Shown: positions 44,040 to 64,000 of the stretch, one piece after another
Numbering within the stretch: position 1 is the first letter of the stretch
Layout: each line of letters begins with the position of its first letter
Translations under genes and position numbers: made by a program
Notes under the pieces: model-generated
The model's input: the letters and a program-made list of their open reading frames with translations, nothing else
What the model was told of the DNA's origin: nothing
Database searches by the model: none
Source: Gordonibacter urolithinfaciens
GTDB lineage: Bacteria; Actinomycetota; Coriobacteriia; Coriobacteriales; Eggerthellaceae
Assembly: GCF_900199375.1 (NCBI RefSeq)
Contig: NZ_LT900217.1
Span: forward strand, 3,100,001 to 3,164,000
DNA: 64,000 nt
Direction: 5' to 3'

Positions 44040-44179
44040 CGGCGCAGGCGGCATCCGCTTCTGGCCGGCTGCACCGGGCGCCTGCCTGGCGCGCCCGGTG
44101 CGCTGCGCCCCTCCGGCGATCCGCCGGTTTTTCTCGCCTGCCGTTTCCCGCGGCTCCGAGGTTTGGTATCCTTGCAGGC

Positions 44180-46565: not shown

Positions 46566-46752
46566 TCGCACGGCCCCTCGTGCAGCGGTTCTCCGCTCCG
46601 CGAGACGCTCCTTGCGCGAAGGTTGCAGCGCCGTGACCGACGGCTGACGGTTGCCCGGAACCCCTCGCGCACGGCGCCGATGTCCCTCACAATCGGAACC
46701 CGATACCACGCGCGCCTCGTCGCGCGGACACCTGCGTCGAAGGGACACGATT

Positions 46753-47256
46753 ATGAACAAGCGCAAGATGAGAATGATGGGCATGGTTCTGGCCGGCGTG
46801 CTGGCGATGACGCCGTTTCTGCACGGGTGCGCCACCGACGACGGCGGCTCCTCGAACGACAACGGCTCGCAGAACTCGACCGAGCAGCAGGAGCAGAACG
46901 GATCCGAGCAGCAGAACACGGGCAGCCAGGGCGACGTCGTCTACTATGGCCAGGTCATGGGCGTGAACGGCGACGAGATCACCGTTGTCCTGGGCGACCT
47001 GAGCGCCGCGGACGGCGAGGGCCTGCAGAAGTTCGAGGCCCAGGAGGACGAGGTCACCTTCAACAAGGGCGACGTCGTCATCGTGGACGAGTCCGGCGCC
47101 GTCGTCGACGACCCCACCGTCTCGGCCGACCAGATCGTGGTCATGAGCGGCTCGGGCGACGGTCCCGACTTCCGGCCCTCGAAGCTGGAGATACTCCAAT
47201 CCAACGCCGACGGCGCCGTGAGCTCCGCGGCCGCGGAGCAGGGCCTGGACCAGTAG
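46753..47256 (+). CDS. Putative lipoprotein of unknown function
   Basis: A 167-residue protein. A lysine-rich start and a hydrophobic segment end in the lipobox LHGC (Cys25). An acidic, Asn/Gln/Ser-rich linker of about 35 residues follows, and then a small domain (about 60-140) with GDVVYYGQVMGVNGDEITVVLG and FNKGDVVIVDESG, reminiscent of a beta-rich OB-like or barrel fold. I know no named family for it. AAGGGA precedes the ATG. It stands alone after xerC. Confidence 0.75.
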   Translation: MNKRKMRMMGMVLAGVLAMTPFLHGCATDDGGSSNDNGSQNSTEQQEQNGSEQQNTGSQGDVVYYGQVMGVNGDEITVVLGDLSAADGEGLQKFEAQEDEVTFNKGDVVIVDESGAVVDDPTVSADQIVVMSGSGDGPDFRPSKLEILQSNADGAVSSAAAEQGLDQ

Positions 47257-47491
47257 CGGCTCTCCTGCCTGCCGCGAAGGACGACCCCGTCGGGAGCGGC
47301 AGCCTGCATCCTCGGTTCGTGCCGGCCTGCGCAGCTCCCAGCCGGCAGCACGATGGCCCGGCTCCGAGCGGGCCCGTGCTGGTTCTGCGAGGCCGCTCGG
47401 CCTCGTACCGGTGCCGACCTGCCGCGCAACGGGCCGCCTTTTCGCACCGTGCGGCCCTCTTGCTCTCGCGCAGCGGGGCGCCCCACCTTTC

Positions 47492-47528
47492 GCAAGCGGT
47501 TTATGAACATTGTTCATAAACCGCTTGC
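47492..47528. promoter_or_regulatory. Perfect 37-bp palindromic operator
   Basis: Two 18-base arms, GCAAGCGGTTTATGAACA (47492-47509) and its exact complement (47511-47528), flank one T. The right arm overlaps the -35 of the TetR gene. A smaller related palindrome TGAAC-GAG-GTTCA lies at 47566-47578 near the start codon. The rest of the 344-bp gap after the lipoprotein gene has a CGAGGCCG/CGGCCTCG stem (47388-47405) and nothing else I can support. Confidence 0.75.
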
Positions 47529-47552
47529 CTTGTTCTAGCGCCCCGCTATAAT
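47525..47552 (+). promoter_or_regulatory. Promoter of the TetR/membrane-protein operon
   Basis: TTGCCT (47525-47530), a 16-bp spacer and TATAAT (47547-47552). The -35 lies at the edge of the palindromic operator, so repressor binding would exclude polymerase. Confidence 0.65.
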
Positions 47553-47600
47553 GGGATAAGCAAAATGAACGAGGTTCAAAGAATGATGGGAGGTGCGGCC

Positions 47601-48260
47601 ATGGCGCGGCAGGGCATCGATCGGGCGGCGATAGCCGAGGCGGCCTACGCGCTGGCGGAGGAGCGCGGGCTGGCGGGCCTGGGTATCCGCAGCGTGGCCG
47701 AGGCCTGCGGCGTGTCCGTGGGCACGATCTACAACTACTTTCCGACGAAGGACGACCTCCTGGTGGAGGTTATCGGCACGTTCTGGCAGCGCGCCTTCCA
47801 CGAGGACCTGTGCCTCATCGTGGAGGGGGAGCGCTTCGACGCCTTCGTCAGTCGGGTTTACGCGGCTATGTCCTCGGCGCTCGCAGCGTTCCGCTCGGAC
47901 TGGCTGCCCCAGATCAGCGCGCTGTCCATCCAAGGACGCGACGAGGGCAAAATGCGCGAGTCCGCGACGTTCGACCATATACGCGCCGGCATGCGGGGCG
48001 TGCTGGAGGCCGACGCGCAGGCCGACCCCGGGCGCGCGGGCATCGAGCCGGCCGAGCTCGTGGCATTCGTGCTCGAGAGCATGATCGCCGGATTGTGCGC
48101 GGGCGAGCCCGACTGCCGCGTGCTCTCGGCGCTGCTGCGCGCGGGGCTCTATGGACCGGACGCGCCGGGTGCGGAAGATGCGGCAGACGGCGCGGGAAGG
48201 CTGGAGCCCCCCGCGCGCAGCACGGAAGGGGCGGCCGCGGCGGCCGCCGGGGAAAGGTGA
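47601..48260 (+). CDS. TetR-family transcriptional regulator
   Basis: A 219-residue repressor. The helix-turn-helix (about 8-55) contains LGIRSVAEACGVSVGTIYNYF with the typical YNYF recognition helix, given here in part. The C-terminal domain is helical and ends in an Ala/Gly-rich tail. GGGAGGT lies six bases before ATG 47601. An upstream in-frame ATG (47565) lacks a ribosome site and overlaps the second palindrome. The stop overlaps the next start (TGATG), so regulator and membrane protein are made together. The 37-bp palindrome upstream is the likely operator for autoregulation. Confidence 0.9.
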   Translation: MARQGIDRAAIAEAAYALAEERGLAGLGIRSVAEACGVSVGTIYNYFPTKDDLLVEVIGTFWQRAFHEDLCLIVEGERFDAFVSRVYAAMSSALAAFRSDWLPQISALSIQGRDEGKMRESATFDHIRAGMRGVLEADAQADPGRAGIEPAELVAFVLESMIAGLCAGEPDCRVLSALLRAGLYGPDAPGAEDAADGAGRLEPPARSTEGAAAAAAGER

Positions 48261-48730
48261 TGGCAATGCTCAAGATCTCAACGAACAAGCTCATGCTCGT
48301 AGCGGGCATCGTGTGGGCCATAGCCGGCGCGAACATCGCCAACATCGGGCTCACGGCCTACCGGCACGACTGGGGCTGGGTCATCTGGGCGCTCCTCGTG
48401 GGCTCGGCGGTGATCTTCGTGCTGTTCCATTCGCGCATCTTCCAGAAGATGGTGGGCAAGCACGCCAAGCGCATCGGCGGCTACGAGGAGGCCAAGACGA
48501 ACATCCTGAAGTTCTTCGACAAGAAGGGCTACATCATGATGGCCATCATGATGGGCGGCGGCATCGGCCTGCGCATGTCGGGGCTCGTGCCCGACTGGTT
48601 CATCGCGTTCTTCTACACGGGCCTGGGCATCGCGCTCACGGTGGCGGGCCTCACCTTCCTGCTGCGTTACTTCATGAACGTGGAGCCGGGGTGCCCCCTG
48701 TTGCCGCGCACCTACGCGAAGCGCGGCTGA
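48260..48730 (+). CDS. Small membrane protein regulated with TetR
   Basis: A protein of about 156 residues with four hydrophobic segments (about 10-28, 36-56, 90-108 and 115-137) separated by a Lys-rich cytoplasmic loop. The start may be ATG 48260 (overlapping the regulator stop) or ATG 48266, which has GGGGAAAGG at good spacing. I do not recognise a named family. Context suggests a small efflux or resistance-related membrane protein, but nothing in the sequence proves transport. Confidence 0.78.
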   Translation: MAMLKISTNKLMLVAGIVWAIAGANIANIGLTAYRHDWGWVIWALLVGSAVIFVLFHSRIFQKMVGKHAKRIGGYEEAKTNILKFFDKKGYIMMAIMMGGGIGLRMSGLVPDWFIAFFYTGLGIALTVAGLTFLLRYFMNVEPGCPLLPRTYAKRG

Positions 48731-48829
48731 CCGGCCGGTCTGCCAGAGCTGCTGCGGCGCGCATCGTTGCGCCATGCGGAGGAAGCGGTGCCGGCACCGC
48801 CCGAAACCAACGGGTTCGCTGACGGCACG

Positions 48830-48868
48830 TTGACGAAACGGTTACGGCTCGGGGGCGTTCGCGCCCCC
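48830..48868. promoter_or_regulatory. Possible regulator repeat and UUCG-type hairpin before the BceR-like gene
   Basis: TTGACG (48830-48835) and GTTACG (48841-48846) are 11 bp apart and, on the minus strand, resemble the GTAAG repeats at 50827-50842. A GGGGGCG-TTCG-CGCCCCC hairpin (48851-48868) follows and a TAGTAT -10 lies at 48875-48880. Tentative. Confidence 0.3.
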
Positions 48869-48944
48869 TTGCCATAGTATGAGGGGCGAACCATGGCATC
48901 GGCCCCGAGGCGCGGTGCGAGAAACCGAGTGTGAAGGAGGCCCC

Positions 48945-49613
48945 GTGGCCCGGATATTCGTCGTGGAGGACGACGCGGCGCTGCGCGGCGAGCTCATGCG
49001 CCTGCTGGAGCTGCAGGGGCACGTTGCGCTGGCCAGCACGGCGTTCGACCGCATTGCCGACGAGGCGCTGGCCGCCGATCCCGACTGCGTCCTGCTGGAC
49101 CTCAAGCTGCCCGGCGACGGCGGCCATGCCGTGTGCCGCGACCTGCGCCGCGCAAGCGACGTGCCCATCGTCATGCTCACCTCGTCGGACAACGAGTTCG
49201 ACGAGGTCATGAGCATGAACCTGGGCGCGGACGACTACGTGACGAAGCCCTACAACCCCGCCGTGCTGCTGGCGCGCATCCAGTCGGTGCTCCGCCGCGC
49301 GGCGCGCACCGAGCCGCCTGCGCGCATCGAGCACAAGGGCGTCGTGCTGGACGTGGCGAAAAGCCGCGTGGAGTACGAGGGCCGCGGGGTGGAGCTCACC
49401 CGCAACGAGTTCCGCGTGCTGCACCTGCTCATGGAGAACAAAGGGGCCATCATCTCGCGCCAGGAGCTCATGATGGAGCTGTGGCAGTCCGACGCCTTCA
49501 TCGACGACAACACGCTCACGGTGAACGTGAACCGGCTGCGCAAGAGCCTGGCCTCCATCGGCGTGCCCGAAGGCTTCCTGGCCACGCGCCGGGGGCAGGG
49601 CTACCTCGTCTGA
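48945..49613 (+). CDS. BceR-like response regulator
   Basis: A 222-residue OmpR-family regulator. The receiver has VVEDDAALR, phospho-acceptor LLDLKLPGDGG, MLTSSDNEFDEVMSMNLGADDYVTKPY in part. The winged helix has LTRNEFRVLHLLMENKG and ends TRRGQGYLV. The NEFDEVMSMNLGADD region and order regulator-kinase-ATPase-permease match BceRSAB systems. GAAGGAGG is placed before the GTG at 48945, which gives the normal N-terminus. It probably activates the transporter promoter at 50827-50880. Confidence 0.92.
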   Translation: MARIFVVEDDAALRGELMRLLELQGHVALASTAFDRIADEALAADPDCVLLDLKLPGDGGHAVCRDLRRASDVPIVMLTSSDNEFDEVMSMNLGADDYVTKPYNPAVLLARIQSVLRRAARTEPPARIEHKGVVLDVAKSRVEYEGRGVELTRNEFRVLHLLMENKGAIISRQELMMELWQSDAFIDDNTLTVNVNRLRKSLASIGVPEGFLATRRGQGYLV

Positions 49614-49629
49614 TGGGCGGTGCGCTGCC

Positions 49630-50655
49630 ATGAGCCTGTCCGCCTATCTGCGCGACAACCTCGCGGCCATCGGCGTGGGCGTGCTGTGCTGCCTGGGCGT
49701 GGCCGGCATGCTGGCGGTGCTGGGCGTGGGCACGGACGCCACGGTGCTCGTGCCGTGTTTCGTGGCGCTGTGCGGCGCGGTGGTGCTCGGCATCGGCTAC
49801 GTGCGCAGACGCCGCTTCTATACCGAGCTCGCGCGCATCGTCGAGGACCTCGACAGCACCTACTTCGCCTCGGAGCTCGTGGAGGATCCCGGCTTCCTCG
49901 AGGGGCATCTGGCCCACGAGGCGCTCGAGGCGGTGGGAAAGGCCGCGGCCGACGATGTGGCGTTCCATCGGCGGCAGGCCGAGTCGTACCGCGACTACAT
50001 CGAGCTGTGGATACACGAGATCAAGACGCCCATCGCCGCCGCCCATCTCATGGCGGCCGACCTGCACGGGGGCGTGGCTGCGAAGCTGAAGGCCGAGCTG
50101 GACCGTATCGAGTCCTACGTGGAGCAGGCGCTCTACTATGCGCGCTCCACCTCGCTCGCGCGCGACTACGCCATTCGCGAGCTGCCGTTGGCCGAGGCCG
50201 TGCGAGCGGCCTGCAAGAAGAACGCGCGCTACCTGATTGAGCACGGCGCCATCCCGTCCATCGAGGTGGGGGACGATGTCTCCGTGTTTGCCGATGCCTC
50301 CTGGCTCTCCTTCGTATTGGGGCAGGTCGTGGTGAACGCGGCGAAATACGGCGCGACTGCCGTGCGCTTCACCGCGCGCGAGGAGGGCACGGGCACGAGC
50401 GCGGCGCGCACCGTGCTGGAGATCGCCGACAACGGGCGGGGAATCCCCGCTGCGGACGTCCCGCGCGTGTTCGACCGCGGCTTCACCGGCGAGAACGGCC
50501 GCGCCCAGGGCTCGGCCACCGGCATGGGCCTGTACCTGGTGGCCACGCTCTGCGAGAAGATGGGCCTCGGCGTGGGCCTGGCCTCCGAGGAGGGCACCGG
50601 TACCCGCGTCATGCTCGCGTTTCCGCACGACCGCAGGCGCAGGGACGTCGGGTGA
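49630..50655 (+). CDS. BceS-like intramembrane-sensing histidine kinase
   Basis: A 341-residue kinase with two N-terminal helices (about 10-32 and 38-57) separated by a few residues, so it has no extracellular sensor. The H-box is IHEIKTPIAAAHL, the N-box GQVVVNAAKYG, and the G-boxes include DNGRGIP and GSATGMGLYLV. Kinases of this class do not sense the drug directly but the activity of the partner BceAB transporter in the membrane. The gene starts 16 bp after the regulator. Confidence 0.93.
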   Translation: MSLSAYLRDNLAAIGVGVLCCLGVAGMLAVLGVGTDATVLVPCFVALCGAVVLGIGYVRRRRFYTELARIVEDLDSTYFASELVEDPGFLEGHLAHEALEAVGKAAADDVAFHRRQAESYRDYIELWIHEIKTPIAAAHLMAADLHGGVAAKLKAELDRIESYVEQALYYARSTSLARDYAIRELPLAEAVRAACKKNARYLIEHGAIPSIEVGDDVSVFADASWLSFVLGQVVVNAAKYGATAVRFTAREEGTGTSAARTVLEIADNGRGIPAADVPRVFDRGFTGENGRAQGSATGMGLYLVATLCEKMGLGVGLASEEGTGTRVMLAFPHDRRRRDVG

Positions 50656-50671
50656 GACGCGGGTGAGACGC

Positions 50672-50795
50672 GGGGACGGGGATGATGTCTCGTTTGGCGT
50701 GGCAGAGGGACGCGGACAATGTCGCATTCCCCCTGATCCTGGCGTGTTTGGAAGACATCAGGGAACGTGATATTACCCCCATCCCCCTGTCGCAT
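50672..50795. repeat. REP-like palindromic element, copy B
   Basis: The segment GGCGTGGCAGAGGGACG lies at 50697-50713 and is shared with copy A (37126-37224, opposite strand). The following 11 bases (GGACAATGTCG) and the rest of the 25-base core GAGGGACG...TTC differ from copy A at only four positions. TGATGTCT (50683-50690) pairs with AGACATCA (50753-50760), and the outer G-rich and C-rich ends are also complementary. It lies between the kinase gene and the transporter promoter. Confidence 0.68.
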
Positions 50796-50826
50796 CCTGT
50801 CACGGGCGCCCCACCCTTGCAAATTC

Positions 50827-50880
50827 GTAAGGTTGCGGTAAGCCTCTTCGATGGCGGGTGCGGCGCCGCGGACGTACTAT
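50827..50880 (+). promoter_or_regulatory. Candidate regulator box and -10 of the bceAB-like operon
   Basis: GTAAG occurs at 50827-50831 and 50838-50842, an 11-bp period. TACTAT (50875-50880) is a likely -10, 31 bp before the ATPase start codon. No -35 consensus is seen, as expected for an activator-dependent promoter. Confidence 0.45.
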
Positions 50881-50911
50881 CTTGGCAGACCCCGAGAGAA
50901 GGAGATTTGCC

Positions 50912-51737
<826 letters not shown>

Positions 51738-51748
<11 letters not shown>

Positions 51749-53930
51749 ACTCGCCTTCCGCAACATCCGCCGCTCGGTCAAGGACTACGGCGTGTACTTC
51801 GTCACGCTCGTTTTCGGCGTGGCGGTGTTCTACGCGTTCAACTCGGTGTCGAGCCAGTCCATTCTCTTCGACCTCGAGGACACGGCCTCGGCCAGCGTCT
51901 TCTCGCTGACGGGGCAGTTCCTCGGCATGTTCAGCGTGCTCATCGCCTGCGTGCTCGGCTTCCTCGTGCTCTACGCGAACGGCTTCCTCATTAGGCGGCG
52001 CAAGCAGGAGTTCGGAACGTACCTCATGCTGGGCATGAATCCCCGCAGCGTGTCGGCTATCGTGCTCATGGAGACGGCGGTGGTGGGCCTCGTGTCGCTC
52101 GTGGTGGGCCTGGCGCTCGGGTTCGCGCTTTCGCAGGGCATGTCGTTCGTCACGGCGGGCCTGTTCAACATCGAGATGACGCAGTACCGCTTCATATTCT
52201 CGTTCGACGCCTTTTTGCTCACGCTGGTGTGCTTCGCGCTCATCTTCGCGGTGACGGCCCTGTTCAACACCGTGTCCATCCGCCGCTACAAGCTCATCGA
52301 CCTGCTCTCCGCCCGCTCGAAGAACGCGCGCTTCCGCGTGCGCAACCCGTGGATCAGCCTCGCCGGGTTCGTTGCGGCCGTGGGCCTGATCGCATGGGCG
52401 TACGCCACGCTCGTCGAAAACGGCCTTCTGGAGTTCGACGACGGGTTCTGGAAGGCCACGGCGCTCATGGTGGTCGGCACGTTTTTGCTCTTCTGGTCGC
52501 TTGCCGGCTTCGCCATCGCGGTGATCGAGCGCACGCGCGGCGTGTACTTCAAGGGCCTCATGATGTTCACGATGCGCCAGATAGCCAGCAAGGTGAACAC
52601 GGCGTTCGTGTCGCTTTCGGTGGTGTGCGTCATGCTGTTCTTCTCGCTCACCGTGTTCTCCACCGGCATGGGGCTGGCGCGCGCCTTCAGCGGAAACATC
52701 GAGGACGGCACGGTCTACGACGCCACGCTCACGGCCAACGTGTACCTGAACCAGGGCGGCACGCGCGACCCCGAGGCGCTCGCGCAGATGACCGAGGAGG
52801 ACCGCGAGTACCAGAAGGTGGCCGACGAGAAGGCGGCCGCCATCGAGGCCGACGCGGAGGCCTACGGCTGGGATATCGCCGCGAAGCTGGCCGACGCCTC
52901 GTCGGCGTGGGACGAGCTCGTGGCGAAGTCCGCTCAGATCGACGCCTTCGTGAGCGACGAGACGTCCTACGGCGAGCTCATGGGGCGCTACGGCCAGGAC
53001 ACGGGCAATGCGAAGCAGAACGAGGCCCTGCACAACCAGGGCGTCACGCTCATCGGCGTCTCGCAGTTCAACGCGCTCGCAGAGCTTGCGGGCCGGCCGA
53101 CCGTGGACGTGGGCGAGGACGGCTACGCGGTGAACAACACGCTCGACGCCATGAAGGCGCTTTCCGAGGCGCTTGCGCGCAAGGGCGAGACGGTGGTCGC
53201 AGGCGGGCGCGTGCTCGAGTCCTCGGGCGAGCTGCGCAGCCAACCGATGGAGGACACCACGTTCTCTGCGAGCGGGGCAGAGCTCATCGTGCCCGACGCG
53301 GTGATCGCCGGCCTGCGCGCCCAAGGCGCCGTTCCCGAGCAGAGCATCCTCAACCTCATGTATCGGACGGACCGGGCCGAGGGCGACAAGCTGCTCGAGC
53401 AGGTGCTCGCCGAGGCGTCGCCCGCCAACCCGGAGGTGGCGGCATCCGGCTGGAAGTTCAGCCCGAAGCCCTGGCCCGTGACGCTGTCGTTCACGGCCGA
53501 GGAGGTGCTCGTGCAGTCGGGCGGCATGAACCTCATGATCTCGTATTTGGCGCTCTACATCGGCTTCGTGTTCCTCATCGCCACGGCGGCCGTCCTGGCC
53601 ATCCAGCAGCTGTCCGAGGCGAGCGACTCGCTGCCGCGCTACCGGGTGCTCGCCGAGATCGGCTGCGACCGCCGCATGATCGTCCAGTCGCTGCGCGCGC
53701 AGGTGCTCGTGTACTTCCTCGTGCCGTTGGCGGTGGCCGTGTGCCATACCGTGTGCGCCGTGGGCGTCATCAGCGACTCCGTCATCTCTCAGCTGGGCGT
53801 GTCGGTGCTCGAGCCTGCGCTCATGACCGCCGTGCTGGTGGCGGTGGTGTACGGGGCGTACCTCGCGGTCACGTACTTCGCCAGCAAGGGCATCATCCGT
53901 GCCTCGCTGGGCAAGAAGCTCGTGGGGTAG
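51738..53930 (+). CDS. BceB-like FtsX-family ABC transporter permease
   Basis: A 730-residue permease. The N-terminus LAFRNIRRSVKDYGVYFVTL is the usual BceB start. Ten hydrophobic segments are visible, with an extracytoplasmic domain of about 250 residues (about 335-585) between the seventh and eighth helices, the layout that binds bacitracin-like or lantibiotic-bound lipid intermediates. The last three helices form an FtsX domain. With the ATPase it frees lipid II-cycle targets from antibiotic and signals flux to the BceS-like kinase. Confidence 0.93.
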
Positions 53931-54020
53931 GGCGGGGCCGCCGCGCGCTGCTCCGCCCGAGCCGCCGCCCGTCGCGTCGCGGGGAAATCCCGCTCGCGGC
54001 GCGGCGGCGGTTCTGCTACC

Positions 54021-54374
54021 ATGTTCGCCATGGGTGACTCGCCGAAAACCGCCAAGCGCCGCGTGCGCGAGAAGCGCACCATCTCGCAGATGGTGGCGCT
54101 TTACTGCGCGGGCAACCACGACGCCGCAGCTCGCACCGAGCGCGCCCATTGCGGCGAGGCCGTGTGCGCGGACTGCGCGGCCATCGATGCCTACGCGGTG
54201 CTGCGTACCGAGCGCTGCCGCAAGATGGAGGTCAAGACCTCCTGCGAGGAATGCGGCAACCACTGCTATGCCCCCGAGAAGCGCGACGAGATCCGTGCCG
54301 TCATGCGCTACGCCGGCCCGCGCATGCTGGGGAGGCACCCGGTGGCGGCCGTGCGGCACCTGCTGGGCCGCTGA
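54021..54374 (+). CDS. YgbA-like nitrous-oxide-stimulated-promoter family protein
   Basis: A 117-residue Cys-rich protein: HCGEAVCADC in the middle, then ERCRKM and SCEECGNHCY, followed by the family-like RDEIRAVMRYAGPRML and HPVAAVRHLL. This pattern matches the family named after E. coli YgbA, which belongs to the nitrosative-stress (NsrR) regulon; its biochemical role is unclear, probably metal or iron-sulfur related. The start may be ATG 54021 or ATG 54030; neither has a clear ribosome site, which hints at a leaderless message. Confidence 0.85.
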   Translation: MFAMGDSPKTAKRRVREKRTISQMVALYCAGNHDAAARTERAHCGEAVCADCAAIDAYAVLRTERCRKMEVKTSCEECGNHCYAPEKRDEIRAVMRYAGPRMLGRHPVAAVRHLLGR

Positions 54375-54490
54375 ACGTCCGCGTGCGCCGCGGATCTGTT
54401 TCTCGAACGTATCCGTTCACGCCGCCCGTTGTCTCCGTTCGGGGTACAATGGCTTCGACGAAACGGTGAGGACGGGACGGAAGGGCGGGC

Positions 54491-56623
54491 ATGCTCGACA
54501 AGGTTGACGCGCTGTTCGCGCGCTTGGAGGACGTCATGGCGTTTCAGGCCATCCGCCAAGGGCTCATCCTCACCATCCCCGTTCTGCTGGTGGGGTCGTT
54601 CTGCCTCATCTTCCTCAACCTGCCGCTCGCGCCCTACCAGGACGCCCTCGCCGGCGCGCCGCGCGTCGAGGGCCTGCTCGACCTCGTGTACGACGGTACC
54701 ATGGGCATCTTCTCGCTCTACGTGTCCGTTGCCGTGGCGCTGCGCTACGCCAACGCCTGCGCCGAGCGCTTCGGGGGCTTCTTCGTCCAGGGCGCGCCCT
54801 TCGCCGCGCTCGCGGCCTACCTCATGTCCGTGGGATTCGGCACCGAGGGCTTCGATCCCATCGTGCTCAGCACGCGCTCGCTGTTCATCGCCATCGTGTG
54901 CGGGCTGGCCTCGTCGGTGCTGTACTGCCGGCTCGTGCGCCTGCGCCGCACCCGGCGGCTGTACGGCGACAGCCTGGACAACGTGTTCAACCAGGCCGTG
55001 TCGGGCCTCCTGCCCATCGCGGCCGTCATCGCGCTCTTCGGCGCGGCGAACGCCGCCGTGGCGGCGCTCTCGGGCTCGAGCTGCATCGAGCAGCTGTTCT
55101 TCGACAGCGTGAGCGCGCTCTTCCCCCTGGCCACGGCCACGTTGGGCAGCGGGCTTCTGTACCTTTTCCTGAACAACGTCATGTGGTTCTTCGGCATCCA
55201 CGGCGGCAACATGCTCGACGGAGTGGCGCAGAGCGTGTTCGTGCCCGGCACGGCCGCCAACGCGGCGGCGCTCGCGGCGGGCGGCGAGCCCGTGCAGATC
55301 GTGACGAAGACGTTCCTGGACGTGTTCGCCTCTATCGGCGGGGCCGGCGCGCTGCTGTCGCTGCTCGCGGCCATCCTGCTGTTCGGCCGCCGCAGGAGCG
55401 CGCGGCGGCTCTCGGCGTTCGCGGCCGTGCCCATGTGCTTCAACATATCCGAGATCATGCTGTTCGGGCTGCCGGTGGTGTGGAACCCGGCGCTGTTCGT
55501 GCCGTTCATCGCGGTGCCCCTGGTGAACATGGTGGTGTCGTACGCAGCCATGGCGGCCGGGCTCGTGCCGCCCGTGGTGGTGGACGTGTCGTGGACCACG
55601 CCGCCTCTCGTGGGCGGCTGGGTGGCCACGGGCTCGCCCGCCGGCGCGGTGCTGCAGCTCGCGTGCATCGTGTTGGGCACGGTGCTCTACCTGCCGTTCC
55701 TACGCCGCTACGAGCGGTTGGCCGACGCCCACGCGCGGGTGCAGTACGATGCCCTGCTCTCGTCGTTCCAGGACGACGAGCGCGCCGGGCGCTCGGTCGA
55801 GCTCGTGACGGCCGCGGGCTCGCTGGGCGCGGTGGCCCGCTCGCTCGCCGAGGACGTGCGGGCCGCCGTGGACGCGGGGGCCTTCGAGCTGCGCTACCAG
55901 CCGCAGTTCGACGCTGACGGCCGCGCGGTTGGCGCGGAGGCCCTGCTTCGCATGGAGCACCCCGTGTACGGCTGGCTCTACCCGCCGCTCGTCATCGAGC
56001 TGGCACGCGAGGCCGGTGCGGGCGGCGAGCTCGAGCGCGCCGTGTTCGAGCGGGCGCTGGCCGACGCGCAGGCTGCGGAGGCGCTCGCGCATGCGGGCGA
56101 GCTCGATGCGGGTTTCAGCGTGAGCGTAAACGCCACGGCCACGATGCTGCAGGACGAGGCGGCCGTCGGCTTCGTCATCGACGCCTTCCGCGCCCGCGGG
56201 CTCGATGCCGGCCGCGTGGTGGTGGAGGCCACCGAGCGCGAGGCGCTGCTGTGGGACGCGGGCGCGCACGACCTGCTGCGCCGCGTTGCGGACGCGGGCA
56301 TGCCGCTGGCCATCGATGACTTCTCCATGGGCCGCACCTCGTTTCAGTACCTCGAGACGAGCGTGTTCTCCGTGGTTAAGCTCGACGGGACCATTGCCAA
56401 GGGCGTCATGGAGAACGAGCGCTACGCCGAGATCGTCTCGTCCATCGCCGACCTCTCCGAGCACCTGGGCTTCACGGTTCTGGCCGAGTACGTGGAGACG
56501 GCCGAGCAGCGCGACGTGCTGAAGACGCTCGGCTGCTCCTACTTCCAAGGCTACCTCTACGCGCCCGCGCTGCCCTTCGACGAGATGGTGGAGCGCGCAC
56601 GGCTGACGGGAACGCTCCGTTAG
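54491..56623 (+). CDS. PTS EIIC-like membrane domain fused to EAL cyclic-di-GMP phosphodiesterase
   Basis: A 710-residue fusion. Residues 1-405 form a PTS EIIC domain of the lactose/cellobiose type with about ten helices, the sugar-site loop GIHGGN (235-240) and the NISEIMLFGLP motif (Glu321). Residues 445-710 form an EAL domain with all catalytic positions: EALLR (483-487), Asn547, Glu579, Asp609-Asp610, Lys630, Glu669 and Gln686. No EIIA or EIIB domain is fused or nearby, so it is more likely a sugar sensor that controls cyclic-di-GMP hydrolysis than a transporter. TACAAT at 54445-54450 is a possible -10. Confidence 0.9.
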   Translation: MLDKVDALFARLEDVMAFQAIRQGLILTIPVLLVGSFCLIFLNLPLAPYQDALAGAPRVEGLLDLVYDGTMGIFSLYVSVAVALRYANACAERFGGFFVQGAPFAALAAYLMSVGFGTEGFDPIVLSTRSLFIAIVCGLASSVLYCRLVRLRRTRRLYGDSLDNVFNQAVSGLLPIAAVIALFGAANAAVAALSGSSCIEQLFFDSVSALFPLATATLGSGLLYLFLNNVMWFFGIHGGNMLDGVAQSVFVPGTAANAAALAAGGEPVQIVTKTFLDVFASIGGAGALLSLLAAILLFGRRRSARRLSAFAAVPMCFNISEIMLFGLPVVWNPALFVPFIAVPLVNMVVSYAAMAAGLVPPVVVDVSWTTPPLVGGWVATGSPAGAVLQLACIVLGTVLYLPFLRRYERLADAHARVQYDALLSSFQDDERAGRSVELVTAAGSLGAVARSLAEDVRAAVDAGAFELRYQPQFDADGRAVGAEALLRMEHPVYGWLYPPLVIELAREAGAGGELERAVFERALADAQAAEALAHAGELDAGFSVSVNATATMLQDEAAVGFVIDAFRARGLDAGRVVVEATEREALLWDAGAHDLLRRVADAGMPLAIDDFSMGRTSFQYLETSVFSVVKLDGTIAKGVMENERYAEIVSSIADLSEHLGFTVLAEYVETAEQRDVLKTLGCSYFQGYLYAPALPFDEMVERARLTGTLR

Positions 56624-56654
56624 GGGGAACTTCTCTTTCGGGGTAGATGATTCA

Positions 56655-56670
56655 GGATGATGCGTCATCC
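56655..56670 (+). terminator. Small stem-loop after the EIIC-EAL gene
   Basis: GGATGA-TGCG-TCATCC forms a perfect 6-bp stem, 32 bp after the stop. No T-run. It is the only structure near the gene end. Confidence 0.35.
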
Positions 56671-56787
56671 CGCGCCCTGCGTCACCCTCGCGGCTGAACT
56701 AGAGGGCAGTGCCGCTGCCCCCCCCTCCCGGCACGCTGCAGCATTGGAAAGCGAACGAATTGTGCGCATCGTTTGAACGCTGGAACA

Positions 56788-56832
56788 CGAACGTATGTTT
56801 TCGCTGGCTCTTTCCGCGCGCTGCGCTAGAAT
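56788..56832 (+). promoter_or_regulatory. SOS (LexA) box and -10 of uvrA
   Basis: CGAACGTATGTTT (56788-56800) fits the Gram-positive/actinobacterial LexA pattern GAAC-N4-GTTC with one deviation. TAGAAT (56827-56832) is a likely -10, giving a leader of about 108 bases before the uvrA ATG. Confidence 0.6.
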
Positions 56833-56946
56833 GAACGATTGCACGGAAATGATAGTTTCCCGGTAGCCTAATTTGCGACCCACGGCACGCGACGCCGGGG
56901 CACGGCTGCCGGCTGCGGATGCGCAAGAGAAAGAGCGATAAGCCAC

Positions 56947-59829
56947 ATGGGACAGAACGCCATCGTCATCAAGGGTGCCCGCGAGCACAACCTCAAGGAC
57001 ATCGACCTCATCATCCCGCGCGACGAGCTCGTGGTCATCACGGGTCTGTCAGGCAGCGGCAAGTCGAGCCTCGCGTTCGACACGATGTACGCCGAGGGCC
57101 AGCGCCGCTACGTGGAGAGCCTCTCCAGCTACGCGCGCATGTTCTTGGGGCAGATGAGCAAGCCGGAACTGGACAGCATCGACGGCCTGTCACCGGCCGT
57201 TTCAATCGACCAGAAGACCACGAGCAAGAACCCGCGTTCCACCGTGGGCACCACCACCGAAATATACGACTACCTGCGCCTGCTGTTCGCTCGCGTGGGC
57301 GTGCCTCACTGTCCCGAGTGCGGGCGCGTCATTCGCAAGCAGACCACCGACCAGGTGACCGACGAGATACTGGCGCTCGCTCCCGATGCGAAGGCCATCA
57401 TCATGGCCCCGGTCGTCACCGGACGCAAGGGCGAGTTCGCGAAGCTGTTCGCCGACCTGCAGAAGGAGGGCTTCAGCCGCGTGCGCATCGACGGCGAGAT
57501 CGTGAAGCTCGAGGCCGAGCCGCTCACGCTCAACAAGAAGATCAAGCACTTCATCGACGTGGTGGTGGACCGCGTGCAGCTGAAGGAGAGCGCCACGAGC
57601 CGCATTGCCGAGGCGGTGGAGCTGGCCACGAAGCTGGCCGACGGGCGCGTGCTCGTGCAGGTGCTGGGCGAGGACGGGCAACCGCTCGGCGAGGGCGGCG
57701 GCAAGTCGAGCGGCGCTACGGGTGGCCTCGGCGCCGGCGAGCATATCTTCTCGCTCGCGCTTGCCTGCCCCGAGCACGGCCATTCCATGGACGAGCTGCA
57801 GCCGCGCGACTTCTCGTTCAACGCCCCCTACGGTGCCTGCCCGGACTGCCTCGGCATCGGCAGCCGCGAGGAGGTGGATCCCTCTCTCGTGGTGCCCGAC
57901 CCCTCGCTCACGCTGGCCGAGGGCGCCATCGCGCCGTTCAAGACGGGCAACTACTACCCGCAGGTGCTGCGCGCCGTGGCCAAGCACATGGGCACCGACG
58001 AAAACACGCCCTGGGAGGACATGCCGAAGAAGGCCACCGACGCGTTGCTCTACGGCCTGGGCGACGACAAGGTGCGCGTGGACTACGTGACCGTGGACGG
58101 GCGCGAGACGTACTGGTACATCGAGTGGGAAGGGGCGCTCGCCGCCGTGCAGCGCCGCTACCAGGAGGCCCAGTCCGACAACCAGCGCGAGAAGCTGTCG
58201 GAGTACTTCGCCATCGTGCCGTGCCAGACGTGCGGCGGCAAGCGCCTGAAGCCGGAGATCCTGGCCGTGACGGTGGGCGGCAAGTCCATCCACGATGTCA
58301 CCGAGATGAGCGCGGCCGATTCGCTCGACTACTTCGAGGGCCTGGCCTTTCACGGCTCCGAAGAGCATATCGCCGGTCCCATCGTGAAGGAGATCAAGGC
58401 GCGCCTGCGCTTCCTGGTGGACGTGGGCTTGGACTACCTCACGCTCGAGCGGGCCACGGCCACGCTCTCGGGCGGCGAGGCGCAGCGCATCCGCCTGGCC
58501 ACGCAGATCGGCGCGGGCCTCATGGGCGTGCTCTACATTTTGGACGAGCCGTCCATCGGCCTGCACCAGCGCGACAACGAGCGGCTCATCGCCACGCTGG
58601 AGCGCCTGCGCGATTTGGGCAACACCGTCATCGTGGTCGAGCACGACGAGGACACCATCCGCAGCGCCGACTACGTCATCGACATGGGCCCGGGCGCGGG
58701 CGAGCACGGCGGCGAGGTGGTGGCGGCCGGCAAGCCCGACGAGATCGTGAGATTCGAGGGCTCGCTCACGGCCGACTACCTTTCGGGCCGCCGCACCATC
58801 CCCGTCCCGGAGAAGCGCCGCAAGCCGCGGCGCGGGTCGCTCAAGCTCACGGGCGCCTCGGAGAACAACCTGAAGAACCTGACGCTGGAGGTTCCCTTCG
58901 GCACGCTCACCGTGGTCACGGGCGTGTCGGGCTCGGGCAAGAGCTCGCTGGTCACCGACACGCTGGCACCGGCGCTCGCGAACCGCGTGAACCATGCGCA
59001 CCGCCGCTCCGGCAAGTACAAGAAGATCACCGGCCTGGACAAGATCGACAAGGTCATCAACATCGACCAGAGCCCCATCGGGCGCACGCCGCGCTCGAAC
59101 CCGGCCACCTACATAGGCCTCTGGGACGACATCCGGGCGCTGTTCGCCAGCACGCAGGAGTCGAAGGCGCGCGGCTACGGGCCGGGGCGCTTCTCCTTCA
59201 ACGTGAACGGCGGCCGCTGCGAGGCCTGCAAGGGCGACGGCCAGATCAAGATCGAGATGCACTTCCTGCCCGACATCTACGTGCCCTGCGAGGTGTGCGG
59301 CGGCGCGCGCTACAACCGCGAGACGCTGCAGGTCACGTACCGCGGCAAGAACATCGCCGAGGTGCTGGACATGACCGTGGACGACGCGCTGGCCTTCTTC
59401 GAGAACATCCCCGGCATCAAGCGCAAGCTGCAGACGCTGCACGACGTGGGTCTGGGCTACATCCGCCTGGGGCAGCCCGCCACCACGCTTTCGGGCGGCG
59501 AGGCGCAGCGCGTGAAGCTGTCGAGCGAGCTGCAGCGCCGCCAGACCGGCAAGACGTTCTACATCCTGGACGAGCCCACCACCGGCCTGCACTTCGAGGA
59601 CGTGCGCCAGCTCTTGGAGGTGCTGGAGCGCCTGGTGGACGCCGGCAACACGGTGCTCGTCATCGAGCACAACCTGGACGTCATCAAGTGCGCCGACCGT
59701 ATCATCGACCTGGGACCCGAGGGCGGCGACCGCGGCGGCACCATCGTGGCCCAGGGCACCCCCGAGGAAGTGGCCGAGGTCGAGGGCAGCTACACGGGAG
59801 CCTTCGTGAAGAGGATGCTGGAGGCGTAG
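56947..59829 (+). CDS. uvrA: Excinuclease ABC subunit A
   Basis: A 960-residue protein, the damage-recognition ATPase of nucleotide excision repair. Two ABC modules are visible: Walker [15 protein letters not shown] and [14 protein letters not shown], and signatures [12 protein letters not shown] and [12 protein letters not shown]. Zinc-binding CxxC pairs occur at [26 protein letters not shown] and CEVCGGAR. The N-terminus [17 protein letters not shown] is standard. An SOS-type box lies upstream and a strong bidirectional terminator follows. Confidence 0.98.
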
Positions 59830-59877
59830 GCTCCCCGGCGCACGCCGTCCCCGTTCGGACGGCACGCTGGCAACAGA

Positions 59878-59922
59878 AGAAAACGAAGCGGCGAGCGCCT
59901 GGCGCTCGCCGCTTCGTTTTCT
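59878..59922. terminator. Bidirectional terminator after uvrA
   Basis: A perfect palindrome of 22-base arms around one T (59900). The arms begin AGAAAACGAAGCGG, and the right arm ends in CGTTTTCT, so both strands have a GC stem followed by a T-run. Confidence 0.9.
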
Positions 59923-59971
59923 GCGGCGCAGCAACGCTTCCGCAGGGCCCCGTCGTCTTCAAGGAAAGATC

Positions 59972-60027
59972 ACCACCCCTTGTCACGTGTTTCCGGTGGT
60001 TTCAGATGCCCGGGCGCTTCCTATACT
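59972..60027 (+). promoter_or_regulatory. Possible operator and -10 of the molybdoenzyme operon
   Basis: ACCACC (59972-59977) and GGTGGT (59995-60000) are inverted around a centre that contains CACGTG. TATACT (60022-60027) is a likely -10, 39 bp before the zinc-ribbon gene. There is no convincing -35, so an activator may be needed. Confidence 0.4.
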
Positions 60028-60066
60028 TTCTCGACAGGAGGACAGCAATCGAGAAAGGAGGAGACC

Positions 60067-60297
60067 ATGTGCTTCAGACCTGCAGACGTGAAGGCCCAGG
60101 CCAATACCTGCCGCAAGTGCGGCGCGGACAATTTGGAGTATGCGGCTATCTGTGAGAAGTGCGGGGCCGAGCTCGAAGGGCCCGACGCCGCCGCCCCGGG
60201 GTTCGCCGCCCCGGCAGGTGCACCCAAGGCACCAGGCGCGCCGAAAGCGCCGAGCGCCCCGAAGGCACCGGGCGCGCCGTCGGCTCCGATGGGGTGA
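60067..60297 (+). CDS. Small zinc-ribbon protein with Ala-Pro repeats
   Basis: A 76-residue protein. Residues 15-32 have two knuckles, CRKC and CEKC, spaced by ten residues, which form a zinc ribbon. The tail from about 45 is a low-complexity run of APKAP/APSAP units, probably extended and flexible. GAAAGGAGG lies in front of the ATG. It is the first gene before the molybdopterin oxidoreductase (100 bp gap), so it is probably part of that operon. Function unknown; similar mini-ribbons occur as accessory proteins. Confidence 0.75.
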   Translation: MCFRPADVKAQANTCRKCGADNLEYAAICEKCGAELEGPDAAAPGFAAPAGAPKAPGAPKAPSAPKAPGAPSAPMG

Positions 60298-60397
60298 TTG
60301 CATCCCGCCTCGGAAGGCCTGTCGGCATAGCACCGGCGAGGGCCCGCTGCGGGGCGCCGCATCGCAAGGCAAGCGATCGAAACACGAGGAACGGAGG

Positions 60398-63142
60398 ATG
60401 AGAAACGTGGAGAATGCTCAGACAGGCACCGAAGGCGAGACGAGGAAAGTCTATGCCGGCTGCCGATCCTGCCACCTGAACTGCCCTGTGTGGGTGACGG
60501 TGAAGGACGGGCGCGCCGTCAAGGTCGAGGGCGACCCGAAGCTCGGTCCGCCCAACATGGGCAAGGCATGCGTGAGGGCCTCGGAGGCCATCCAGTTCGA
60601 GTACAGCCCGACGCGCCTGCGCTACCCCCTGAAACGAGCGGGGAAGCGCGGCGAGGGGAAGTGGGAGCGCGTCTCATGGGATCAAGCCGTGGACGAGATC
60701 GCAGCCAAGATCCATGAGATGGTGGAGAAGCACGGCGCGGAGACGTTCGTGCTCCCGGGACGCACCGGGCGCCATGACATGGGTTGGGTCGCCCACCGCA
60801 TCGCCCGGACCATCGGCACCCCCAACAACTACTACGGGGCCATCCAGGTTTGCTACCTGCCGCAGTTCCACGAGCAGGTCAACTACGGGTTCTACACGGC
60901 GACCGGCGGCGGCTCGGCTGCGACGAAATGCCACGTGAGCTTCTCCGCCGAGCAGGCCTACGCGTGGCCGATCCAGGCGCAGACCATCATGGCGAACAAA
61001 GAGAACGGCATGAAGCTCATCGTCGTGGATCCCGTCCAGGGAGTCTATGCCAGCAAGGCGGACGAGTGGGTCCCCGTGCGTCCCGGCACCGACGTCGGCT
61101 TGATCATGGGCATGGCGAAGGTGATCATCGACAAGGGCCTCTACGACAAGGACTACGTCGTGCGCTGGAGCAACGCCCCCTTCCTGGTGCGGGGCGACAC
61201 GGGCGGTTTGCTGCTTGAGAGCGACATCGTGGAGGGCGGCAGCGACAAGCGCTTCATGGTGTGGGACGAGAAGGAGGACCGCCTGAAGTACTGGGACGCC
61301 GAGGAGATCCAGTGGGAGGGCGGCCCCTCCGGCAAGGCCCATTACGACCATCTGGTGGAGCTGTTCGAAAAGAACAAGACCTCGACCGAGAAGTCGCCGG
61401 CGGCCGACCTGCCCGACTCCATCATGCCCGCGCTGTTCGGCGAGCACGAGGTGGAGCTCTGCACGCGCGGAGGAAAGATCACCTGCATCCCGGCCTTCCA
61501 GATGCTCGCGAACAACGTCGCGGAATGGACGCCCGAGCACACCGAGTCGATCACGGGCGTTCCCGCCGACCAGGTGGAGCGCGTGGCCACGATGATCGGC
61601 ACGCTCAAACCCGTCGACATCAACCAGGGCATGCAGTACATGTCCACGAACGTCTCGCAGTACGTGAACGCCATCAACGTGCTGAAGATCATCACCGGCA
61701 GCGTGGACGTGGCGGGCGGCAACGTGCTCGGCGCCTTCTACCCGGTGACGCCGCACGCCTTCCCCAGCGAACTCGACCTTTCCTGGGCCGACGGGCTGCC
61801 CTTGGAGCAGAAGCGCAAGCGCCTCGGCTACTACACGCACCGGGTGGGCTGCGGCTACGCCTGGGAGGAGATGGTGAAGTGGCAGCCTATCCGCCCGCAG
61901 AACGCCGACGGCGCCATGCTGTTCCCCGACCTCACGAGCGTCATGGAGGCGGCGGAGACGGGCCGTCCCTATCCCGTGCACGGCATCATAGCCATCTCGT
62001 CCAACTGGCTCATGCACGATCCCACCCTCGCGCGCTGGCTCAAGCTGCTCGAGGACGAGACGAAGATCGAGCTGCACGTGGTCACGGACGTGGTCATGAC
62101 CCCGACGGCCGAGATGGCGGACTATGTGCTGCCCGCCGTCACCTGGATGGAGCGCAACTTCCTCAACTTCGGCACCGGCGGCGGCTCGAGCCCGCTGCAC
62201 CAGGCCTACAACAAGGCCGTCGAGCCCCTCTGCGAGGCGCGCCACGACTACGATTTCGGCGCGATGCTCTCCAAGGCGCTTGGCAAGTACGACAAGCGCT
62301 ACGTTGAGGGCCGCCTCAACCACGAGTGGACCAACCACTGGGCGGGGGAGTACGGGAAGTTCTGGCCCGCCGACACCATCGACGGACAGCGCGACCTCCT
62401 GTCCCGCGAGTTTTTGGGCATGCCGTTCGAGGACGTGCTCAAGCGCCGCGTGGTGGCGGTCCCCGGTGCCGACACGCCGCCGTCCACGGAGCGCTTCCTG
62501 ATAGCCGGGAAGTTCCCCACCGACACGGGCAAGGCGAACCTGTTCTCGACGATCCACCAGAAGTGCGGCTACCCGCCCCTGCCGGTGTACGTCGAGCCGG
62601 CCGAGTCCCTGCTGTCGCGCCCCGACCTCGCAAAGGACTATCCGCTGGTTGGATCGTACGGCAAGCGGCAGGCGGGCTTCTTCCACTCGGAGTTCCGCCA
62701 GCTGCCTTGGACGCGAGAGATGACGAGGACGCCCGACGTGTTCATCAACCCGGAGACGGCCGCGCAGTTCGGCGTCGCCGAGAACGACTGGATATGGGTG
62801 GAGTCCCCGCCCACGGGAGGGCGCGCCCCCTACAACAAGATCATGGGCAAGGTGTCGTTCAGGTTCATGGTCGCTCCCGGCATTGTCTCGTACTCCCAGC
62901 ACGCGTGGTGGCGTCCCGAGAAGACCGTGGAGGAGGAGCTGCACGGTGCCTTCGAGTGGAACACCGAGGCCCTGATCGAGGTGGAGAACAACTGCCCCGA
63001 GACCGGATCGGGCGGGTACCGCTCGCAGATATGCCGTATCTACAAGGCAACCGAGGAGGATATCGCGCGCTACCGGCCCGAGATCACGCGCGAACAGCTC
63101 GAGGCGCTCATGCCCATGACCCCGGAGGAGTGTGCAAAATGA
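60398..63142 (+). CDS. Molybdopterin-dependent oxidoreductase, catalytic subunit (DMSO-reductase superfamily)
   Basis: A 914-residue enzyme. The N-terminal [4Fe-4S] site is C22-x2-C25-x3-C29-x28-C58. Molybdopterin-binding segments follow (LIVVDPVQGVYASKADEWVPVRPGTD in part, and a C-terminal NPETAAQFGV domain). Cys152 in IQVCYLPQ lies where Cys or Sec binds molybdenum in relatives. There is no Tat signal, so the enzyme should stay in the cytoplasm unless carried by a partner. GGAACGGAGG precedes the ATG. The stop overlaps the iron-sulfur subunit. It resembles acetylene hydratase/transhydroxylase and gut catechol dehydroxylase relatives; the substrate is unknown. Confidence 0.9.
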   Translation: MRNVENAQTGTEGETRKVYAGCRSCHLNCPVWVTVKDGRAVKVEGDPKLGPPNMGKACVRASEAIQFEYSPTRLRYPLKRAGKRGEGKWERVSWDQAVDEIAAKIHEMVEKHGAETFVLPGRTGRHDMGWVAHRIARTIGTPNNYYGAIQVCYLPQFHEQVNYGFYTATGGGSAATKCHVSFSAEQAYAWPIQAQTIMANKENGMKLIVVDPVQGVYASKADEWVPVRPGTDVGLIMGMAKVIIDKGLYDKDYVVRWSNAPFLVRGDTGGLLLESDIVEGGSDKRFMVWDEKEDRLKYWDAEEIQWEGGPSGKAHYDHLVELFEKNKTSTEKSPAADLPDSIMPALFGEHEVELCTRGGKITCIPAFQMLANNVAEWTPEHTESITGVPADQVERVATMIGTLKPVDINQGMQYMSTNVSQYVNAINVLKIITGSVDVAGGNVLGAFYPVTPHAFPSELDLSWADGLPLEQKRKRLGYYTHRVGCGYAWEEMVKWQPIRPQNADGAMLFPDLTSVMEAAETGRPYPVHGIIAISSNWLMHDPTLARWLKLLEDETKIELHVVTDVVMTPTAEMADYVLPAVTWMERNFLNFGTGGGSSPLHQAYNKAVEPLCEARHDYDFGAMLSKALGKYDKRYVEGRLNHEWTNHWAGEYGKFWPADTIDGQRDLLSREFLGMPFEDVLKRRVVAVPGADTPPSTERFLIAGKFPTDTGKANLFSTIHQKCGYPPLPVYVEPAESLLSRPDLAKDYPLVGSYGKRQAGFFHSEFRQLPWTREMTRTPDVFINPETAAQFGVAENDWIWVESPPTGGRAPYNKIMGKVSFRFMVAPGIVSYSQHAWWRPEKTVEEELHGAFEWNTEALIEVENNCPETGSGGYRSQICRIYKATEEDIARYRPEITREQLEALMPMTPEECAK

Positions 63143-63732
63143 CGCAGCTAGGTTTGGTCGTATCCCTTGACCGTTGCATGGACACGCGCGGCTGCATGGG
63201 GGCGTGCAAGCAGGAGAACAACGTCGACCTCGGCGCGTTCTGGGTACGCACGTACACCTCCACCACCGGCGGGTTCCCCGATGCGGAGACGTACTTCATC
63301 CCGGTGATGTGCCAGCATTGCAGAAAGCCCTCCTGCGTTCCGGCCTGTCCCGAGCAGGCGATACGCAAGCGCGAGGACGGAATCGTCGTCATCGACACGG
63401 CACCTTGCGCCGCCTGCGGGGGGAAGGAGTGCATGGACGCCTGCCCCTACGGCGCCATCAGCTACAACGAGCGCGACAACACGGTGGGGAAGTGCGATAT
63501 GTGCGCTGCCCGCGTGGACCAGGGGCTCGCTCCCGCCTGCGCGTTCGCCTGCAACTCGAACGCGTGGATGTTCGGGGACGTGGACGATCCCGAGAGCGGT
63601 ATATCGCAGGTTCTCGCAGCGATGGGCGACAACGTCCACCAGCTCAAGCCGGAGACGGGCAACGAGCCCTCCTGTTACTACCTATTGAGCTCGAAGCGGT
63701 GGCAGGACATGGACGGGCTGCGCGCCCGCTAG
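63139..63732 (+). CDS. 4Fe-4S ferredoxin-type electron-transfer subunit (DmsB/NrfC-like)
   Basis: A 197-residue protein with four Cys clusters: CMDTRGCMGAC near the start, CQHCRKPSCVPACP, CAACGGKECMDACPYGA and CDMCAARVDQGLAPACAFAC. The pattern fits DmsB-type subunits with up to four [4Fe-4S] clusters. The start overlaps the catalytic-subunit stop (ATGA), so the two form a complex. The family normally links a membrane anchor or soluble donor to the molybdenum subunit. No signal peptide is visible. Confidence 0.92.
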   Translation: MTQLGLVVSLDRCMDTRGCMGACKQENNVDLGAFWVRTYTSTTGGFPDAETYFIPVMCQHCRKPSCVPACPEQAIRKREDGIVVIDTAPCAACGGKECMDACPYGAISYNERDNTVGKCDMCAARVDQGLAPACAFACNSNAWMFGDVDDPESGISQVLAAMGDNVHQLKPETGNEPSCYYLLSSKRWQDMDGLRAR

Positions 63733-63797
63733 CAGGCACGCCGGCAGGCCGGGGCCTCTGCCCCGGCCTGCCGGGAAACAGGGAAGGAGGGGCTTCG

Positions 63798-64000
63798 ATG
63801 GAGAACCATGATGCCCTCGGGGAAGGTTTTTGCAAAGCTCAGGCCGAGCGTCTGAGCCTGCTCGCCCGGATATTCTGGAACGTCGCCGACCGCGAGGCGC
63901 TGGAATCGCTCGATCTCGCCCCGTTCGACGGCATGGGAGAGGCCGTCGAACGGGCGAGGGAGGGCGTCGAGCGGGACCGGAGGCGCGCGCTCGCCGACGA
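63798..64000 (+). CDS. TorD-like molybdoenzyme chaperone, N-terminal part (cut by window edge)
   Basis: An ATG at 63798 with AAGGAGG seven bases before it opens a frame that continues to the window edge (67 full codons). The peptide starts MENHDALGEGFCKAQAERLS and continues LLARIFWN, an all-helical, charged sequence, like the first helices of TorD/DmsD-family chaperones that insert cofactor into molybdoenzymes. Position directly after the catalytic and iron-sulfur genes supports this, but the fragment is too short to be certain. Confidence 0.6.
   Translation, partial: MENHDALGEGFCKAQAERLSLLARIFWNVADREALESLDLAPFDGMGEAVERAREGVERDRRRALAD

Follow-up and report, generated by a model that had tools for sequence, protein, structure and literature searches.

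An EIIC-EAL fusion of Gordonibacter urolithinfaciens as a predicted membrane ligand receptor with a lactose/cellobiose-class PTS permease fold

Introduction

PTS parts have been connected with c-di-GMP turnover in two ways, both covered in a 2022 review (PMC8846402). According to the Pfam architecture count given there, the PTS_EIIC domain is joined to GGDEF, EAL and/or HD_5 domains; these architectures share the sensor family with the protein described here and very probably include the EIIC-EAL pair, the pairs not being itemised in that part of the review. In the same part, PTS_EIIC in c-di-GMP enzymes is treated as a phosphoreceiver, whereas the fusion reported here belongs to a host without a detectable PTS phosphodonor. 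The review also reports, citing Heo 2019, that EIIA-Glc controls PdeS in Vibrio cholerae. As that system is summarised there, the likeness is that a component of the PTS governs a c-di-GMP phosphodiesterase; however, EIIA-Glc is a separate protein and its control is driven by phosphorylation, whereas in the fusion a permease half lies in cis and the phosphorylation chain is missing.

In the literature searched, no functional study of an EIIC-EAL fusion was found, and an earlier description is possible. Bordeleau is said to have made a census for C. difficile in 2011. The gene analyzed here lies in a window of 64,000 nucleotides of the Gordonibacter urolithinfaciens chromosome (contig NZ_LT900217.1, positions 3,100,001 to 3,164,000), and all coordinates below refer to this window.

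Results

The open reading frame of the fusion starts with ATG, ends with TAG and is directly preceded by a purine-rich stretch (Table 1). A first-pass annotation had described a complete EIIC-like membrane half with GIHGGN and a complete EAL half with all catalytic residues, and both descriptions hold. The PTS_EIIC profile (PF02378) is matched from 1 to 319 of 319 with 114.3 bits, against a gathering cut-off of 30.7, GIHGGN being residues 235-240, and the EAL profile is matched from 2 to 235 of 236 with 170.4 bits, against a cut-off of 31.3, with the metal and catalytic residues in place. The domain-architecture search that had been proposed found EIIC together with EAL in the best 80 of 148 relatives. 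Relatives at 29-87% identity carry both domains at a similar length, so the fusion is not a product of chance.

Table 1. Features of the fusion gene and protein, in window coordinates
Feature	Coordinates	Strand	Residues	Basis or remark
EIIC-EAL fusion CDS	54491..56623	+	710 aa, coordinates including the stop	ORF check, full-length relatives
PTS_EIIC match	54554..55519	+	22-343	Pfam, E 7.9e-33
Place of transporter motif IxMPxxVPxxVxxSFxxL, here LYGDSLDNVFNQAVSGL	54959..55009	+	157-173	
GIHGG	55193..55207	+	235-239	H237 aligns with bcChbC H250
E321	55451..55453	+	321	aligns with bcChbC E334 (phmmer alignment)
W368	55592..55594	+	368	aligns with bcChbC W382 (phmmer alignment)
Connector helices	55637..55876	+	helix 383-432, then helix 443-462 into EAL	AlphaFold2 model
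EAL phosphodiesterase domain	55850..56566	+	454-692	Pfam, E 5.4e-50

The EIIC half extends to about residue 410 (nucleotide 55720) and falls by NCBIfam in the lactose/cellobiose class, though its score against the TIGR00410 subfamily, 233.7 bits, is slightly under the curated cut-off of 236. Its nearest solved relative is bcChbC (3qnq; phmmer, residues 17-412, E 8.9e-43), whose residues H250, E334 and W382, with numbers counted along the phmmer alignment, we take to be sugar-contacting positions. A comparison with bcChbC and the lactose/cellobiose class shows that the fusion retains the His of GIHG, the Glu that comes after it and the WTTP Trp, whereas it differs at the IxMPxxVPxxV motif and at the Pro behind that Glu, carries an EAL domain where EIIB would follow, and has no EIIB, HPr or EI match in its genome. 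H237 is present in 93 of 93 fusion rows, and His occupies the position in 47 of 59 transporters; E321 is likewise kept in 93/93 fusion rows, and position 368 is Trp in 89 and Phe in 4 of the 93. By contrast, the Pro following the pocket Glu is found in 57/59 transporters and in only 3/93 fusions. Two further residues of the ligand-binding half, K273 (92/93) and D277 (90/93), are near-invariant in the fusions and variable in the transporters, which hints that the fusions have a single ligand class in common. When the model is superposed with VIA-align on 3qnq as one body, the rmsd is 10.3 over 332 residues (Z 28.9), and this poor fit reflects either a different state of the elevator or an artefact of the model.

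The fusions have lost one stretch, at residues 157-175, where transporters read IxMPxxVPxxVxxSFxxLIP and fusions do not. The strict form IxMPxxVP, defined as a transporter criterion in this analysis and not by a curator, is found in 63 of 68 kept transporters and 67 of 76 fetched ones, versus 0/95 fusions, the Gordonibacter protein among those lacking it; the five kept transporter rows without the strict motif have VPP or IPP at that place. P163 occurs in 59/59 transporters versus 0/93 fusions. Moreover, among seven EIIC segments, residues 151-176 form the only one in which transporters are more alike (0.50) than fusions (0.36). From its Arg/Lys-rich flank, we infer that this stretch is cytoplasmic. 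The difference first emerged among transporters of Coriobacteriia, and its clustering p value of 8e-4 is post hoc. In a later check, 9 of 9 plasmid-borne transporters (Bacilli, Enterobacterales) retain the motif, and fusions from C. difficile and Tritonibacter are without it, these nine transporters and two plasmid fusions being hand-picked among 60 listed of 456 records. Because EIICB fusions also retain the motif, its loss is not caused by C-terminal fusion as such. A divergent EIIC-EAL protein from a genome of another family (L035:1501-3567, G256) retains LLP and NEP of the transporter motifs and is a possible intermediate or a separate fusion.

For these comparisons, 59 of the 67 transporter regions from class matches passed the coverage rule; of the eight dropped (L051, L060, L061, L147, L165, L168, L176 and L181), four have the strict motif. 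Row counts of 93, 95, 59 and 68 are before redundancy removal and those of 82 and 79 after it, and six of the 93 fusion rows repeat a row from another collection. L069, a row with masked letters, is included in the 93-row counts and stands outside the 82-row set, the tree and the conservation/dN/dS analysis.

On the EAL side, E483, N547, E579, E582, D609, D610, K630, E666 and Q686, which we take to be the catalytic positions from RocR-type EAL enzymes, are all present, each in 82/82 members of the 90%-non-redundant fusion set, where E669 is found in 75/82. The phmmer matches of this half are EAL domains, 8arv and PA3825 among them. With VIA-align, the EAL half superposes on the PdeA EAL domain (3u2e) with a Z of 31.3 and an rmsd of 1.8 over 259 residues, the Z values for BifA (8arv) and RocR (3sy8) being 30.9 and 28.6. 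The fold and catalytic positions of these three enzymes are thus kept, whereas the EAL domain of the fusion is joined to a permease-derived membrane half, and not to PAS, REC, CACHE or GGDEF.

The two halves are linked, in an AlphaFold2 model run on an alignment of 51 fusions (mean pLDDT 88.5, pTM 0.77), by a predicted helix 383-432 that continues from the last EIIC membrane helix, with residues 411-449 being the least conserved part of the fusion protein. Mean identity over the fusion family is 0.485 for EIIC, 0.495 for EAL and 0.283 for the connector. Within EIIC, conservation is highest in the ligand-binding half, where segments in 230-405 have mean identities of 0.58-0.70 versus 0.41 for residues 1-150, which suggests that EIIC is probably more than an anchor. 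Across four nearer pairs, dN/dS runs from 0.12 to 0.31 in EIIC and from 0.07 to 0.25 in EAL; with the nearest relative (L069), the constraint on EIIC is clearly the weaker one, at 0.21 versus 0.07 for EAL.

The host genome, a single contig of 3,294,868 bases that is 99.97% complete, has the fusion gene as its sole EIIC match in the profile search. The profiles for the EI N-domain, PTS_IIB and HPr gave 0, 0 and 0 matches in it, and match in 7, 6 and 7 of 14 control genomes, the scope of this search being the EI N-domain, PTS_IIB as defined by PF02302, and HPr. The genome therefore shows neither the EI and HPr nor the PTS_IIB partner of a functional PTS transporter, nor the EI/HPr phosphoryl donor that a phosphoreceiver would need. 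The first-pass annotation had named two findings that would tell against it, a remote EIIB serving transport and a genome with no diguanylate cyclase: PTS_IIB is at 0 in the genome, as are EI and HPr, and the GGDEF check that it had called for gave 28 matches. Some of these stand two to a protein, and together with 13 EAL matches in 3.3 Mb they make up a rich c-di-GMP network. As the phosphorylation chain is missing, PTS transport and the phosphoreceiver role put forward in PMC8846402 cannot apply in this cell, and within the reach of the profiles both ordinary PTS transport and phospho-control are excluded.

Immediately upstream of the fusion gene, at 54021-54374, a small YgbA_NO (nitrous oxide-stimulated promoter) protein is encoded, beyond which lies an FtsX-type permease; on the other side, uvrA is the direct neighbour, with a molybdopterin oxidoreductase (60140-63142) downstream of uvrA. 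The permease closes a row formed by a response regulator, a histidine kinase, an ABC ATPase and the permease itself (48879-53930), which presumably resembles a Bce-type peptide-sensing module. The earlier observation that no EIIA or EIIB lies around the gene was confirmed, with neither a PTS part nor a sugar gene among the eight ORFs scanned within 48278-63139. Also, Rfam gave no match in 44000-64000 of the window.

A scan of GTDB matched 271 stretches, 148 of them encoding a relative, and the loci analyzed are the best 80 of these 148, so that full length is favoured. In all 80, an open frame spans EIIC and EAL, and lengths range from 684 to 737 residues among these and the remaining rows (L116 starts at a contig edge); both Pfam domains were found in 51/51 members scanned. 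Ten of the best 80 come from Eggerthellaceae, one from a Treponema bin and one from a gammaproteobacterial bin, the rest being Bacillota bar one, and the rumen or gut is the source of many. The plasmid members, a C. difficile record and Tritonibacter, are annotated merely as "EAL domain-containing protein". In the C. difficile record (L183, NZ_CP149720.1; 163 kb, listed as a plasmid), the EIIC-EAL gene adjoins rlmH, which may point to a piece of chromosome carried by a plasmid or to a fault of assembly.

The 80 loci have no consistent neighbourhood, the top neighbour cluster being found in 9/80 at mixed positions and the others in 3 or fewer, with longest-ORF picking and many short contigs. 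A sugar-kinase-like gene, recognized by eye, adjoins the fusion in 3/80. A tblastn search of the flanks of the 80 loci with five queries (three EIIC, two EIIB) turned up no further EIIC or EIIB besides the fusion; GGDEF relatives occur in 9/80 loci and EAL relatives in 2/80. A quick tree of 36 fusions and 24 transporters of one class, with rows thinned to 62% identity and three long branches, among them L035, has one branch (SH-aLRT 95) with all fusions on one side, and this topology allows a single fusion origin but does not prove one.

In Eggerthellaceae, the fusion is present in 17 of 138 genomes and EI in 19 of 138 over the cut-off (20 at E 0.001), with no overlap between them. Over all 138 genomes, this non-overlap falls short of significance (p 0.13), EI being uncommon in the family, and related genomes are not independent. 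Among the 40 genomes that bear an EIIC, however, EI is found in 0/17 with the fusion versus 19/23 of the rest (Fisher p 7e-8, without correction for kinship). Each of the 17 fusion-bearing genomes has a single EIIC match. The fusion occurs in eight genera and EI in seven, and genus g23 has species of both kinds. In a sample of 296 Coriobacteriia genomes, the fusion is present in 13, namely 12 Eggerthellaceae and the genome of another family mentioned above, with EI in 0/13 of them and in 142/296 overall at E 0.001 (139 over the cut-off). Outside Eggerthellaceae, EI is found in 18 of 49 carrier genomes, those behind the first 50 of 70 loci by rank, largely bins of unstated completeness, and the fusion thus neither needs nor shuns a PTS.

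Several candidates from these surveys were set aside. An 18th Eggerthellaceae match (G322) is not a fusion, its EIIC match having TGA codons and no EAL. This bin of 1.1 Mb, 75% complete, has nine EIIC matches, seven with internal TGA codons, and these are possibly contigs of a TGA-reading organism. Ten regions with Coriobacteriia EIIC matches in frames of 550-1270 aa were considered as further fusions: L053-L059 were judged by eye to be EIICB transporters, mostly adjoining glycosidase genes, and L060-L062 to be ordinary EIIC within long open frames. Also by eye, the EIIC of G221, G327 and G351, three of the four genomes without EI or fusion (G322 being the one outside), are ordinary PTS enzymes.

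Discussion

The first-pass annotation had proposed that a transporter fold was converted into a sensor. This proposal is supported in part: comparative evidence favours it, since the fusion sequences keep the pocket and have lost the transporter motif. We consider it probable that the protein is a lactose/cellobiose-class PTS permease fold that has left phosphotransfer and now serves as a membrane ligand receptor setting a phosphodiesterase. In such a receptor, a carbohydrate would bind the EIIC pocket, the ligand probably being disaccharide-like by descent from ChbC/CelB, and the ligand-binding half would move against the dimeric scaffold. The long helix (383-462) would carry this movement on to the EAL domain in the cytoplasm, which occupies the C-terminal place of EIIB in EIICB transporters. 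Then, a change in how the two EAL domains pair, or in the ordering of their loops, would change the rate of c-di-GMP hydrolysis, and the cell could match its c-di-GMP level to the outside ligand without phosphorylating that ligand.

The main rival to the receptor reading is facilitated diffusion with signalling, in which the EIIC half would pass sugar and the passage, not the binding, would tune the EAL enzyme. Some mutant EII proteins are known to let sugar diffuse through EIIC unphosphorylated, the entire EIIC fold and pocket are retained, and the sugar-kinase-like gene beside the fusion in 3/80 loci would fit. Nevertheless, the transporter motif is missing from 95/95 fusions, and no sugar gene is a recurrent neighbour of the fusion in over 3/80 loci, as judged with simple ORF picking and many short contigs, so that we regard sugar passage as unlikely. 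The EIIC half could also merely hold and pair the EAL domains and bind nothing, given that ChbC-type EIIC is a dimer and that many EAL enzymes need pairing, and the weaker constraint on EIIC against the nearest relative (L069, dN/dS 0.21 vs 0.07) points in the same direction; but it is in the ligand-binding half that EIIC is most conserved (0.58-0.70 vs 0.41), and the pocket His and Glu are kept in 93/93, which makes a plain anchor improbable.

The other two alternatives carry still less weight. Loop 6 of the EAL half reads DDFSMG, and DDFGTG is the more usual form in EAL domains, as might be expected if this half bound c-di-GMP or a partner without cutting c-di-GMP; with nine catalytic positions kept in 82/82, an inactive, regulatory EAL seems very improbable. 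As for an EIIC half that reports the PTS phosphorylation state, as a phosphoreceiver or PTS-coupled regulator, we know of no phosphorylation site in EIIC itself. EI, HPr and PTS_IIB are unmatched in the host genome and EI is found in 0/17 fusion genomes of Eggerthellaceae, which refutes this role for the host unless an unrecognised phosphodonor exists, and EI in 18/49 other carriers is what speaks for it, along with the role suggested for PTS_EIIC domains, and the EIIA-Glc control of PdeS in Vibrio cholerae, in the relevant part of PMC8846402; on balance, we find it scarcely credible here.

Taking the protein as a receptor, a broader history can be proposed, for which we see about an even chance: an ancient single fusion would have turned a permease into a dedicated, non-transporting carbohydrate receptor that spread via gut and rumen Bacillota and Eggerthellaceae, with a face for phosphotransfer or transport lost and its binding half near-uniform, probably for one ligand class, and that now serves PTS-free bacteria. 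New in this family appear to be its occurrence in a host in which no PTS is detectable, its size and the signature of a kept pocket with a lost motif.

Few signals that set c-di-GMP are known in gut bacteria, and transporter-derived receptors are rare. The fusion argues against the published phosphoreceiver reading of EIIC in c-di-GMP proteins, as put forward in that part of PMC8846402, at least in PTS-free hosts. Moreover, the IxMPxxVP motif separates receptor from transporter forms of EIIC, and the fusion family is easily recognised, is present in cultured gut actinobacteria and has a predicted ligand site that would be open to mutation.
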